Virus record (IMG/VR): IMGVR_UViG_3300030107_006487
Span: 1-23,496 of that record
DNA from: a virus
Direction: 5' to 3' (one strand)
DNA length: 23,496 nt
The notes beneath the pieces were generated by a model. It saw only the letters and a program-made list of their open reading frames with translations, was not told where the DNA came from and did no database searches. The translations under genes were made by a program, and so were the position numbers. Below, piece after piece: positions 8,681 to 12,976 of this stretch; position 1 is the first letter of the stretch, and every line of letters starts with the position of its first letter.

Positions 8681-10547
8681 TGGATTACAGTTAAACTTTA
8701 GTTTTAAAAAATCGATATGGTCAGCTCCTAGTGAGTACAAGGATTTGAGTGGATACGATGAAATCGCCATTGATTTAGAAACTCGTGATGATGGTATTAA
8801 CACTGGTATGGGTGCAGGTTGGGCTACTAAGTCTGGAGAGATAGTGGGCTTTGCTGTTGCCGTTGCGGGTTGGCAAGGTTACTTTCCTTTTGGACATCTG
8901 GGTGGTGGTAATTTAATCAAGGAACAAGTTTGGCAGTACATGAAAGATGTATGTGCTTTGCCAGGAACAAAGATATTTCATAATGCTCAATACGATATAG
9001 GCTGGTTACAAGCGTCAGGGATCACGGTTCACGGAACAATCGTAGACACCATGATAGCGGGTGCATTGATTGATGAGAACCGTTATAGCTATGCACTCAA
9101 CAGTTTATCTAAAGATTATTTAGGTGAACTGAAAGCAGAGACAGAATTGGTTGAAGCAGCACAACAGCATGGGGTAGATCCAAAAGGTGAGATGTGGAAG
9201 TTACCAGCAGAGCATGTTGGTTTCTATGCCGAACAAGATGCAAGACTTACTTATCTGTTGTGGCAAAGGTTTAAAGTAGAAATTCAAAACCAAAACTTAA
9301 ACACAATTTGGAATTTAGAGAGTAAATTATTACCTCATCTAATCAACATGCGTATGCAAGGTATAAGAGTTGATGTTGAAAAAGCGACTCAACTTAAAAA
9401 AGACTTTATGAGCCGAGAAAAAACAGTTCTACAACAGATTAAAAAACTTACAGGCACTAATGTAGATATTTGGGCGGCAAGACAGATTGGTCATGCTTTT
9501 GACAAGCTTGGTATTGATTACCCTAAGACAACAAAGTCAAAAGAACCTAGTTTTACTCAACAATGGTTGAGCAACTCACCACATGATATTAGCAAATTAA
9601 TTGTTCAAGCAAGAGAACTTAATAAGTTTCAAAACACTTTTATAAACTCTATATTAAAGTTTGAACACAAAGGTCGCATACACAGTGAGATAAGACAACT
9701 TAAAAGTGAGCAAGGTGGCACAACCACTGGCAGATTAGCAATGTCAAATCCTAATTTACAACAACTACCAGCACGATCTAAAGAGTTTGGTCCATTGATT
9801 AGAGGTTTATTTTTACCTGAAGAGGGTTGTCAGTGGGGAAGTTTTGATTACTCTCAACAAGAACCAAGACTTGTGGTGCATTATGCCGCAAGTGTGGGTG
9901 ATGGTTTTGCAGGTTCTAATGAATTGGTAGAGGCGTATAAAAAAGGTGATGCTGACTTTCATCAGACGGTGGCTGATTTGGTAGGTATTGATCGTAAATC
10001 TGCCAAGACCATTGGATTAGGTTTGATGTACGGTATGGGTAAAAATAAGTTAGGTGTGCAACTAGGGGTGTCCAATGATGAAGCTCATGACTTAATAAAT
10101 TTATATAACCGAAAAGTACCTTTTGTCAAAGATTTATCTGATATGTGTATGAAAAAAGCAGACAATGAAGGTGTTATTAGAACTAAGTTAGGCCGTAAAT
10201 GTCGGTTTGATATGTGGGAGACTCGTGATTTTGGCATACATACGCCAGAGCGTTTTGAAAACGCATCGGCTAAATACGGCCAATCAAATATTAAAAGAGC
10301 GTTTACTTATAAAGCACTCAACCGTTTAATACAAGGTAGTGCTGCCGATCAAACCAAACAAGCTATTCTTGATTGTATTGAATTAGGACATCAACCTTTA
10401 TTACAAGTGCATGATGAACTATGTTTTAATGTAGAGAGTGATAAACAAGCCAAACAAATTAAAGAAGCTATGGAAACTTGTGTGGAATTAAAAGTACCTA
10501 GTAAAGTTGATGTTGCTTTGGGTAAAGATTTTGGTGAAGTGGTATGA
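8670..10547 (+). CDS. polA: Family-A DNA polymerase with 3'-5' exonuclease domain
   Basis: 625 residues. The proofreading exonuclease is intact: ExoI IDLETR (34-39, Asp35/Glu37), ExoII HNAQYD (104-109, Asn105/Asp109) and ExoIII YAEQD (186-190). The polymerase domain has motif A DYSQQEPR (393-400), motif B KTIGLGLMYG (446-455) and motif C VHDEL (580-584); there is no 5'-3' nuclease domain. The residue equivalent to E. coli Pol I Phe762 is Leu450. ATG 8670 is preferred over upstream in-frame starts because AGGAGAG lies 5-11 bases before it and the upstream extension would only overlap the helicase gene. The stop overlaps the methylase start (ATGA). It is the replicative polymerase of this phage. 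Confidence 0.95.
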   Translation: MNSDGLQLNFSFKKSIWSAPSEYKDLSGYDEIAIDLETRDDGINTGMGAGWATKSGEIVGFAVAVAGWQGYFPFGHLGGGNLIKEQVWQYMKDVCALPGTKIFHNAQYDIGWLQASGITVHGTIVDTMIAGALIDENRYSYALNSLSKDYLGELKAETELVEAAQQHGVDPKGEMWKLPAEHVGFYAEQDARLTYLLWQRFKVEIQNQNLNTIWNLESKLLPHLINMRMQGIRVDVEKATQLKKDFMSREKTVLQQIKKLTGTNVDIWAARQIGHAFDKLGIDYPKTTKSKEPSFTQQWLSNSPHDISKLIVQARELNKFQNTFINSILKFEHKGRIHSEIRQLKSEQGGTTTGRLAMSNPNLQQLPARSKEFGPLIRGLFLPEEGCQWGSFDYSQQEPRLVVHYAASVGDGFAGSNELVEAYKKGDADFHQTVADLVGIDRKSAKTIGLGLMYGMGKNKLGVQLGVSNDEAHDLINLYNRKVPFVKDLSDMCMKKADNEGVIRTKLGRKCRFDMWETRDFGIHTPERFENASAKYGQSNIKRAFTYKALNRLIQGSAADQTKQAILDCIELGHQPLLQVHDELCFNVESDKQAKQIKEAMETCVELKVPSKVDVALGKDFGEVV

Positions 10548-11050
10548 TAGCTTTTCCTAATAAAAAATATCGTACCATTTATGCTGACCCACCTTGGAAT
10601 GAAGTAGGTGGTGGTAAAATTAAGCGTGGTGCTGACCGACATTACTCGTTAATGAAAACAGCAGACATTAAAAAGTTACCTGTTCAGGATATAGCTGATG
10701 ACGAGTGTTGGTTGTATATGTGGGTTACCAATAACTATTTAAAAGATGGATTGGACATTATGGAACATTGGGGGTTTAGATATATAACTAATATAGTTTG
10801 GGCAAAAACTTCATTTGGTTTAGGTTATTACTTTAGAGGGCAACATGAAATTTGTTTGTTTGGTGTCAAAGGTAAATTAAAACCAAAAATTAAAAACGAA
10901 AGCACCTTAATACTTAAACCAAAAGACAAACATTCCAAAAAACCAGAGGAGTTTTATGAAAAGATTGAGAATGTATCACATGGTCCGTATATAGAACTAT
11001 TTGCAAGAGAACACAGAGATGGTTGGGATGTATGGGGAAACGAGATATGA
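10544..11050 (+). CDS. MT-A70-family adenine-N6 DNA methyltransferase
   Basis: 168 residues. The catalytic DPPW motif is at 15-18 (YADPPWNE). The family's conserved blocks follow: LYMWVTNNYLKDGL, the WGF strand, YFRGQHEICLFGVKG, HSKKPEEFYEKIE and the C-terminal YIELFAREHRDGWDVWGNE. Bacteriophage members methylate adenine in DNA, probably in a short recognition sequence, and protect phage DNA from restriction; they use S-adenosylmethionine. The small size is normal for phage MT-A70 proteins. It is coupled on both sides by ATGA overlaps (polymerase upstream, PP-loop protein downstream) and is the first of three genes that look like a DNA-modification cluster. Confidence 0.93.
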   Translation: MIAFPNKKYRTIYADPPWNEVGGGKIKRGADRHYSLMKTADIKKLPVQDIADDECWLYMWVTNNYLKDGLDIMEHWGFRYITNIVWAKTSFGLGYYFRGQHEICLFGVKGKLKPKIKNESTLILKPKDKHSKKPEEFYEKIENVSHGPYIELFAREHRDGWDVWGNEI

Positions 11051-11871
11051 AAACATTGCGAGTTTTGTCTCTTGGGGCAGGAGTGCAAAGCACAACGATT
11101 GCCTTGATGATTGAAAAAGGTGAACTGCCCATGGTTGACGGAGCTGTGTTCTCGGATACCGGAGGAGAACCTAAAGATGTATATGATCACTTGGCTTGGT
11201 TAGAAAAACAACTATCCTATCCCGTTTACAAAGTGCAGTGGAGAAATTTAAAACAAGATATTATAGACGCTGCTGATGGGAAACTTAAGAAGTTTACTGT
11301 GCCTTTTTATACCTTGGATAAAAAAACCAACAAGCGTGGTTCTTTAATAAGACAATGCACTAGGGATTATAAGGTAAGACCTGTTACCAACAAGGTAAGA
11401 GAAATGATGGGCTATCAAAGGTATCAGCATGTTGATAAGACTAAATGGAAAGTTGAAATGTTAATCGGTATTTCTAATGATGAAATGCAACGCATGAAAA
11501 AAAATATATTAAAGTACGCTCAAAATGTGTACCCATTGATTGAAAAAGGCATGTCTAGAAATGATTGTCTTGCATGGATGAAAAAAAATAATTATCCAGA
11601 GCCACCAAGAAGTGCCTGTACTTTTTGTCCGTACCATTCAAATAAAGAATGGCATAATTTAAAACAAAATCAAAAAGAGTGGGATGAAGTAATTAAAATG
11701 GATCGTTTGATAAGAAATACAGACGAAAACAAAAAGAGTCAAATAATTAATAATGAAATGTTTTTACACTATAGTTGTAAACCCTTAGATGAGATTAATT
11801 TTGATGATAAATTATGTGAACAGTTTGCTTTTGATTTCGCAGATGAATGTGAGGGAATGTGTGGCAATTAA
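11047..11871 (+). CDS. PP-loop ATPase / PAPS-reductase-like protein
   Basis: 274 residues from ATG 11047 (ATGA overlap with the methylase, GGGGAA upstream); an in-frame TTG at 11023 is less likely. The N-terminus carries the PP-loop SLGAGVQST (8-16), which binds ATP to adenylate a substrate, then FSDTGGEP (35-42). Four cysteines are suggestive of a metal or Fe-S site: Cys104 in RQCTRDYKVRPV, Cys174 in NDCLAWM, and Cys191/Cys194 in ACTFCPYH. The family includes PAPS reductases, DndC (DNA phosphorothioation) and thiolation enzymes. Placement between two DNA methylases makes nucleic-acid modification attractive, but no other dnd gene is visible, so sulfur metabolism or tRNA thiolation remain possible. 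Confidence 0.8.
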   Translation: MKTLRVLSLGAGVQSTTIALMIEKGELPMVDGAVFSDTGGEPKDVYDHLAWLEKQLSYPVYKVQWRNLKQDIIDAADGKLKKFTVPFYTLDKKTNKRGSLIRQCTRDYKVRPVTNKVREMMGYQRYQHVDKTKWKVEMLIGISNDEMQRMKKNILKYAQNVYPLIEKGMSRNDCLAWMKKNNYPEPPRSACTFCPYHSNKEWHNLKQNQKEWDEVIKMDRLIRNTDENKKSQIINNEMFLHYSCKPLDEINFDDKLCEQFAFDFADECEGMCGN

Positions 11872-12976
11872 GCATTTAGACTTTTGTTCAGGTATTGGTG
11901 GTTGGGCGATAGCTTTTCGTGAACTAGGCATCAACACCATTGCCTTTTGTGAGATAGAAAAATACCCAAGACAAGTATTGCAAAAAAACTTTCCTAATAT
12001 ACCAATTTTTAATGATTTAAAGGAGTTGACTTATGAAGATATCAAAAAAAGAACAGGAGTTGATGGCATTGACATCCTCACTTGTTCCTACCCCTGCCAA
12101 CCTTTTAGTGTTGCAGGCAAACAAAAAGGCGAAGAAGATCCAAGACACCTCTGGCCAGACACTTTTAGACTTGTCCAAGAGTGTAGGCCCACTTGGTTTG
12201 TTGGAGAAAACGTTAGTGGACACATTAAACTCGGTCTTGACACCGTGCTCCAGGACTTGGCGAGTGAAGGTTACGACACAAGGACATTTATTATTCCAGC
12301 TTCATCCGTTGGTGCATGGCACAAAAGGGAAAGACTCTGGGTTATCGGATATAAAGCAGTATCCGACACCGACAACTCAAGAGATAGAGCATCCAGACAT
12401 AAAGCTGACCAAGAACAACCGCAGACTGACCAAGGATGGCAAAAACAGTCACAGCTTGAATTTGGCGGACACAGTGAGAATGTATCCGACACCGAGAGCC
12501 TGCGACTTAGAGGGAGGAGTGGTCAAGAATGTAGATCTCCACAATGGCAGTTTCTCCAGGAAGAACAAGAAGGGCGTGAGGTATGGCGTGAAGTTGAAGG
12601 ACGCAGTACACCATATGGAGAAGATGTACCCAACACCAGCAGCGAGGGATTACAAGGACTCAACGCTAAGCCCAGCATCAATGAGTCGCAACTCGGACAG
12701 TCTACCGACTATGATGATGCGACAAGAACAGTATCCGACACCTCAAGCGGCAGATTGGAAGAACATGGATACAGCAAAACAGAAGATGCTTTCCAATTCA
12801 CTGCCCAAGAAAACTGGTGGCAAACTCAATCCGAACTTTGTGGAGTTCCTGATGGGATTTCCTATGAACTGGACAAAAGTCGAGTCGGAAGAATCAAAGG
12901 ATTAGGTAATGCTATCGTACCTCAAATCGCCTGGTTTATTGGTCATGCCATAATTACCGCAGAAAAAAAGTCTTGA
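11861..12976 (+). CDS. dcm: C5-cytosine DNA methyltransferase
   Basis: 371 residues from GTG 11861, which has GAGGGA 4 bases upstream and starts right before motif I; in-frame ATGs at 11789 and 11843 would overlap the PP-loop gene more. Motif I DFCSGIGGW (7-15), catalytic PCQPFS with Cys79 (78-83), ENV (116-118), HKRERLWVIG (154-163) and C-terminal RIKGLGNAIVPQIAWFIG are all present, so the enzyme looks complete. Between them lies a long hydrophilic variable region with repeated SDT/NTS segments (VSDTDNS, VSDTESL, VPNTSSE, VSDTSSG), probably the target-recognition region. It probably protects phage DNA from restriction. Most of the gene is overlapped by another ORF (12033-12905) in the +1 frame. 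Confidence 0.92.
   Translation: MAIKHLDFCSGIGGWAIAFRELGINTIAFCEIEKYPRQVLQKNFPNIPIFNDLKELTYEDIKKRTGVDGIDILTCSYPCQPFSVAGKQKGEEDPRHLWPDTFRLVQECRPTWFVGENVSGHIKLGLDTVLQDLASEGYDTRTFIIPASSVGAWHKRERLWVIGYKAVSDTDNSRDRASRHKADQEQPQTDQGWQKQSQLEFGGHSENVSDTESLRLRGRSGQECRSPQWQFLQEEQEGREVWREVEGRSTPYGEDVPNTSSEGLQGLNAKPSINESQLGQSTDYDDATRTVSDTSSGRLEEHGYSKTEDAFQFTAQENWWQTQSELCGVPDGISYELDKSRVGRIKGLGNAIVPQIAWFIGHAIITAEKKS
12033..12905 (+). CDS. Overlapping ORF inside the cytosine methylase gene (YPTP-repeat protein)
   Basis: A 290-residue ORF in the +1 frame, lying wholly inside the C5-methylase gene. It has its own Shine-Dalgarno, AAAGGAG (12019-12025), 7 bases before ATG 12033. Its protein is not random-looking: CSRTWRVKVTTQGHLLFQL (72-90), four YPTP motifs (110, 151, 199, 234), DYKDS/DWKN segments after them, and LNPNFVEFLMGFPMNWT (265-281). 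I recall these elements from proteins annotated as phage methylase-associated or hypothetical; this memory needs a search to confirm. The repeat DNA TATCCGACACC reads V-S-D-T in the methylase and Y-P-T-P here. It may be a target-recognition or regulatory partner of the methylase, or a protein-like byproduct of the methylase repeat region. Confidence 0.55.
   Translation: MKISKKEQELMALTSSLVPTPANLLVLQANKKAKKIQDTSGQTLLDLSKSVGPLGLLEKTLVDTLNSVLTPCSRTWRVKVTTQGHLLFQLHPLVHGTKGKDSGLSDIKQYPTPTTQEIEHPDIKLTKNNRRLTKDGKNSHSLNLADTVRMYPTPRACDLEGGVVKNVDLHNGSFSRKNKKGVRYGVKLKDAVHHMEKMYPTPAARDYKDSTLSPASMSRNSDSLPTMMMRQEQYPTPQAADWKNMDTAKQKMLSNSLPKKTGGKLNPNFVEFLMGFPMNWTKVESEESKD

Follow-up and report, generated by a model that had tools for sequence, protein, structure and literature searches.

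A conserved gene overprinted on a phage cytosine-C5 methylase gene, and its likely role as the target-choosing subunit of a split methyltransferase

Does a long open reading frame nested within a viral cytosine-C5 methylase gene encode a second protein and, if so, what would that protein do? The question is raised by a locus in the window (the whole stretch of DNA analysed, 23,496 nucleotides of an IMG/VR virus record). A preliminary description, made from the sequence alone, had reported a 290-codon +1 ORF inside the methylase gene, with AAAGGAG 7 bases before its start, four YPTP repeats, and the blocks LNPNFVEFLMGFPMNWT and CSRTWRVKVTTQGHLLFQL. All of this held. The longest methylase ORF (11789-12976, starting at ATG 11789) fully encloses the +1 ORF (12033-12905), TAYCCRACACC occurs in four exact copies (12360, 12483, 12627, and 12732; 0.01 expected), and both blocks were found in the +1 protein. 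One minor correction concerns the methylase start, which is probably GTG 11861 and not ATG 11789, as inferred from a GAGGG upstream and from the homologues, which begin at the equivalent of 11867. Hereafter, the methylase is called alpha and the nested product beta (Table 1). Alpha matches PF00145 (E 8e-41) and TIGR00675. No family model of Pfam or NCBIfam matched beta, and its residues 5-288 match PHROG 1008, labeled "DNA methyltransferase" (E 1.4e-33). Immediately upstream of the methylase (window 10544-11871) are genes for an MT-A70 adenine methylase and a PAPS-reductase-like protein; L006, L007, and the Mycobacterium phage ShiLan likewise have a PAPS-reductase gene close to the methylase. 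The neighbors in the window are consistent with a DNA-modification region.

Table 1. Coordinates of the alpha and beta genes and their parts within the window
Feature	Position	Strand	Remark
Alpha (C5-cytosine methylase catalytic subunit)	11861..12976	+	motifs I-VIII and X; motif IX absent
Beta ribosome-binding site AAAGGAG	12019..12025	+	7 nt 5' of the beta ATG
Beta	12033..12905	+	nested gene, +1 frame, ATG start, 290 aa; PHROG 1008 member
Beta N-terminal domain (TSGQ...TWRVKVTTQGHLLFQL)	12033..12359	+	lies over alpha motifs IV-VIII; constraint in both frames
Alpha motif IV, catalytic Pro-Cys-Gln	12092..12100	+	invariant P76 C77 Q78
Beta cassette 1 (YPTPTTQEIEHPD..., family F4)	12360..12482	+	YPTP repeat start
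Alpha-frame filler, motifs VIII to X	12401..12877	+	no predicted structure; pLDDT <50
Beta cassette 2 (YPTPRACDLEGGVVKNV..., family F3)	12483..12626	+	YPTP repeat start
Beta cassette 3 (YPTPAARDYKDST...)	12627..12731	+	YPTP repeat start
Beta cassette 4 (YPTPQAADWKNMDT...) and linker	12732..12824	+	YPTP repeat start
Beta motif IX (LNPNFVEFLMGFPMNWT)	12825..12875	+	conserved in 48 aligned beta proteins
Alpha motif X (LGNAIVP)	12902..12922	+	begins at the end of beta

When the synonymous codons of alpha were resampled with the codon usage of the window (20,000 trials), the +1 frame contained a mean of 14.1 stops, versus the terminal stop only in the observed frame. Since no trial gave fewer than four stops, a chance origin of the ORF is excluded. 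Permuting alpha's own synonymous codons left the +1 frame open in 0.4% of the trials (P = 0.004), and open stretches in the +1 and +2 frames of ten other large genes in the window reach 95 codons at most. Codon-position and dN/dS tests were carried out on 13 related loci, with the overlap divided into three parts. In the flanks encoding alpha alone, the variation is 0.38-0.49 at position 3 and below 0.10 at positions 1 and 2; across the three parts of the overlap, position 3 variation goes down to 0.14, 0.23, and 0.07. The dN/dS of beta is 0.32 (0.17-0.57) in the part with motifs IV-VIII, where that of alpha is 0.19 (0.10-0.29); 0.53 (0.44-0.63) in the YPTP part, where that of alpha is 0.91 (0.74-1.11); and 0.34 (0.14-0.68) in the motif IX part. 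Purifying selection acts in both frames but at different places: the two are constrained together in the stretch of motifs IV-VIII, and the +1 frame alone in the YPTP region. For the cassettes we additionally compared 747 pairs, in which identity by bin was 0.17, 0.29, 0.42, and 0.51 in the alpha frame and 0.18, 0.27, 0.39, and 0.49 in the third, non-coding frame, with a beta-frame identity of 0.37-0.80, around 1.6-2.2 times the alpha-frame value. Over the cassettes, the gene is beta, and alpha is filler that shows no constraint beyond that coming from beta.

The preliminary description had proposed a conserved dual-coding (overprinted) gene. This is supported by the +1 frame being open in dozens of distinct loci, by the codon-position and dN/dS tests, and by the ribosome-binding site, which is retained as AAAGGAG in close relatives and in comparable form in 52 of 66 distinct full-length loci. 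The proposal would have been refuted by a lack of purifying selection in the +1 frame, by frequent stops there in relatives, or by loss of AAAGGAG in close relatives; all three were checked and none refuted it. If an overprinted gene is defined by purifying selection in both frames together with retention in relatives, beta meets the definition.

What beta contributes is best approached from what alpha lacks. In known C5-methylases, a small domain comprising the recognition region and motif IX is placed between motifs VIII and X (PMC3404938). The invariant residues of motifs I, IV, VIII, and X are present in alpha, and motif IX (LNPNFVEFLMGFP) is found in the +1 protein and is absent from the methylase frame, with motif X coming next, in the methylase frame. 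Being without motif IX, alpha does not qualify as a single-chain enzyme with PF00145 and all ten motifs. An AlphaFold model of alpha (53 sequences) has high confidence for residues 1-178 and 339-368, leaves 179-337 without structure, and aligns with the large domain of M.HhaI (Z about 25 over about 200 residues). On the basis of this model and the motif search, alpha is predicted to be the large domain only, with the small domain and its motif IX missing. The assignment of LNPNFVEFLMGFPMNWT as motif IX is by position and relies on relatives in which everything is in a single frame (L102/L103, and the Mycobacterium phages prophiGD91-2 and ShiLan). There, one chain carries motifs I-VIII, PTP cassettes, IX, and X, and LNPDWVALLMGFP or APAFSEWMMGWP stands in the motif IX position, between the cassettes and directly before motif X. 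For beta alone, AlphaFold (48 sequences) gave no reliable fold (pLDDT 52), so the model was not used for fold comparison, and the search of a beta profile against solved structures returned no relative, only chance matches. The N-domain of beta is conserved without having any assigned function, and the translation of beta is itself inferred, there being no expression data.

The middle of beta is a row of cassettes. Cutting 163 distinct beta ORFs at xPTP yielded 471 segments with a median of 40 residues, among which 19 families had four or more members (one of them a large merged catch-all and one belonging to the N-domain). The sets and order of cassettes differ among close relatives whose N-domains are nearly identical: TQEIEH-RACDLEGG-ARDYKDS-AADWKNM in the window, NTMDHLPP-RACDLEGG-ARDYKDS-AADWKNM in L008, NTMDHLPP-TQEIEH-VGCEEGG-ASDWKNM-SRDHKGG in L013, and RACDLEGG-ARDYQGA-NSEHKYR in L020. 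The types also reappear in distant bacteria, as in L167, where TQE-EH has 60% identity in the beta frame versus 13% in the alpha frame. In the single-frame relatives, the cassettes are between motifs VIII and IX, i.e., at the target-recognition position. While the exchange of cassettes is shown, their function is inferred: the tandem YPTP cassettes of approximately 40 residues are most likely exchangeable target-recognition modules, and the reading of DNA by each cassette has not been shown. This view of the middle of beta, as a row of swappable modules inferred to recognize targets, is what is new here.

Among viral-contig loci spanning the region, retrieved using the methylase protein alone, the +1 ORF is present in all but two, which are single-frame fusions. 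Bacterial genomes scanned with the beta motif (motif IX) yielded 225 relatives. In the best 80 of these, beta is in the +1 frame relative to alpha in every case (80/80), alpha is open beyond beta in 73, and a motif IX match is found in beta in 78 but never in alpha. Such a scan favors beta-bearing loci, although this bias does not extend to the frame relation or to the state of alpha. The record titles name Bacillota, Bacteroidota, Pseudomonadota, Chloroflexota, Verrucomicrobiota, Synergistota, Nitrospirota, Actinomycetota, Acidobacteriota, Calditrichota, and others; by these titles, phages and prophages from roughly ten or more bacterial phyla have the double gene, as do E. coli prophages and a Salmonella phage-plasmid. 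A search for further single-frame fusions with the second frame of a Gordonia phage found two loci. Other arrangements exist as well. In L167, alpha and beta are adjoining separate genes; the second frame of L149 and Gordonia phage Upyo (L005) has both motif IX and motif X; and Gordonia phage JKSyngboy and contig L228 have motif IX in the alpha frame, with the cassettes still in the +1 frame. Across these five, the content common to beta is the cassettes and not motif IX, and given JKSyngboy and L228, the supply of motif IX cannot be the sole role of beta.

Several individual loci deserve mention. In the fusions L102 and L103 (3155-3454 in both), a 99-codon +1 ORF resembling the beta N-domain (ELTLFQ...PAS) persists, as if alpha and beta had been fused again. 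In the deep-sea phage Deep1-GF2-KM23-C739 (L001:2297-3204, KT997847.1), alpha is frameshifted near an A run while beta is intact; the frameshift may be real or a sequencing error. The viral contig L109 (2977-4824), which has a +1 beta ORF, carries an apparent intein at the alpha catalytic site (GGFP/C...VVHN/CQPF). The E. coli cS100a prophage (L237:1057-2226) is given in RefSeq as two partial methylase pseudogenes, with alpha open for 404 codons and beta for 343, and the labels are likely an annotation artifact of the double frame. In the sampled E. coli prophages and several phage records, alpha is annotated alone; Paenibacillus larvae phage Leyra, by contrast, has annotations for both ORFs.

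A separate observation concerns related methylases with an in-frame stop at the catalytic motif IV of alpha, as seen in three relatives from bacterial genomes. Viral contigs were scanned for any 6-nt insert at GGFP/CQ. In true methylases, such inserts are always a stop codon followed by YYN (mostly TAACTA), never sense, and in 46 distinct loci (L183:2464 and L240-L347; e.g., L264, minus strand, and L240:6826) the insert falls precisely at the junction of the Pro codon and the catalytic Cys codon. Beta is usually open through the insert and alpha is open to motif X; in these loci, the motif X region after the stop varies by 0.54 at position 3 versus 0.24 and 0.19, an ordinary coding constraint. 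In true methylases, the stop is preceded by CCG, CCT, or CCA and never by CCC, which is common in uninterrupted methylases (24 of 76). In a set retrieved regardless of the insert, its frequency was 4/80. In two Synergistaceae loci (L207:2470 and L217:2224), the insert follows the catalytic Cys-Gln (CAG TAA CTA CAG; CAG TAA CTG). The insert between Pro and Cys might reflect a programmed ribosomal bypass (take-off at CCN and landing at YYN, restoring GGFPCQ) or stop read-through, neither of which has been shown; a short hop is one reading because YYN can pair with proline tRNA via G-C or G-U. The window methylase has no such insert.

Taken as a whole, the locus most likely encodes a two-subunit split DNA cytosine-C5 methyltransferase of the M.EcoHK31I kind, a precedent that the preliminary description had missed, with alpha as one subunit and the nested beta choosing the targets. 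The split is argued from the shown distribution of motifs: IX only in the +1 protein, X in the methylase frame, and all of them united in the single-frame relatives. The remainder is inferred, without expression or activity data. One mRNA would give both polypeptides, beta being translated from its own internal start and ribosome-binding site in the +1 frame. Alpha would perform catalysis (motifs I-VIII and X) and beta would supply the missing small domain, that is, the N-domain, the cassettes, and motif IX. The two would assemble into one active methylase, where both the heterodimer and the need of both polypeptides for activity are inferences. The cassette set of beta would then determine which sequences are methylated. 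Anti-restriction is the usual role of phage methylases, and the methylation presumably shields the phage DNA from host restriction. Of the roles initially suggested for beta, a partner that helps to choose the target is the best fit, with motif IX and the cassettes at the recognition position, and an inhibitor found no support.

Other explanations can be envisaged. Beta could be an essential partner providing only motif IX and stability, with alpha choosing the target and the cassettes being linkers, in line with the assignment of the predicted recognition domain of M.EcoHK31I to its larger subunit (PMC3404938). This is unlikely, given that the alpha frame is unconstrained and predicted to be unstructured exactly at the cassettes, whereas these are conserved in the beta frame, recurrent across phyla, exchanged, and placed between motifs VIII and IX in the single-frame relatives. 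It is also conceivable that ribosomal frameshifting yields one fused chain (the N-terminal half of alpha, the cassettes, and motif IX) and no separate beta, and the single-frame relatives are examples of such a chain working. However, upstream of motif IV beta is provided with a start and a ribosome-binding site of its own, its conserved N-domain over motifs IV-VIII would be left out of the fusion, and L167 has beta as a separate gene. With motif X again read in the alpha frame, the ribosome would have to shift twice, in opposite directions, and we regard this reading as very improbable.

Even less credit is given to beta as an inhibitor or anti-restriction protein that merely shares its DNA with the methylase. 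Beta could in principle have an overprinted function of its own, but no evidence for this was found; L102/L103 and the mycobacteriophages have motif IX and the cassettes in the methylase chain itself, and alpha is without motif IX wherever beta has it. Finally, the open +1 frame could be a compositional consequence of the methylase sequence, for which only the 0.4% of own-codon permutations that stay open can be cited. The dN/dS values, the resampling, the cassette-pair identities, and the retention across many phyla contradict this, leaving it practically excluded. The chance ORF, inhibitor, and frameshift-fusion readings were therefore considered and rejected.

The split methyltransferase with a target-choosing beta can be extended to a bolder reading, towards which we lean slightly: a class of C5-methylases that is widespread among phages and prophages may carry its whole specificity apparatus (tandem, horizontally exchanged cassettes for target recognition plus motif IX) as a subunit overprinted on the catalytic gene, so that gain, loss, or swap of cassettes would re-program the methylated motifs, whichever cassette is present being tolerated in the catalytic frame as unstructured filler. 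In bacteria and phages, long genes that overlap on the same strand are often questioned or left out by annotation. The present overlap combines large size with conservation in many phyla, and it can be tested by a simple assay of DNA modification. Should the cassettes prove to be recognition modules, short exchangeable peptides could allow the methylation specificity of many phages to be read and recombined, and a supposed rarity of two enzymes would turn out to be a common enzyme design.

In regard to known systems, beta is a match of PHROG 1008, but the label of that cluster gives neither the overlap nor a role. The open-access literature was searched for the overlapping family and returned only statements on M.EcoHK31I and M.AquI, which does not exclude a description elsewhere. 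M.AquI (CYCGRG) is a split C5-methylase whose second polypeptide has motif IX (PMC3404938), as in the window. Its beta also has motif X, the split being inside the variable region, whereas in the window motif X is in alpha; M.AquI is resembled more by L149 and Gordonia phage Upyo, where the second frame has both IX and X. The multispecific C5-methyltransferases of the Bacillus phages SPR and phi3T are single proteins with tandem recognition modules of approximately 40 residues between motifs VIII and IX. The window has similar tandem exchangeable modules of about 40 aa, variable in set and order, but on a separate overprinted subunit and with a recognition role that is inferred. M.EcoHK31I (YGGCCR) consists of two polypeptides, the larger with motifs I-VIII and X and the smaller with IX (PMC3404938), and its beta gene is reported to be nested, in a different frame, within that of alpha (Lee et al. 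1995). The window shares this distribution on both counts, its larger polypeptide having I-VIII and X without IX and its smaller one having IX. The difference is in the recognition domain, which a review predicts to be in the larger subunit of M.EcoHK31I (PMC3404938), whereas the constrained, exchangeable cassettes of the window are in beta. The beta of M.EcoHK31I has 176 aa, as compared to 290 aa and four cassettes here. Because the alpha stretch from motif VIII to motif X shows no constraint in the cassettes and no predicted structure, we consider the window system a variant of M.EcoHK31I and not a plain member of its kind.
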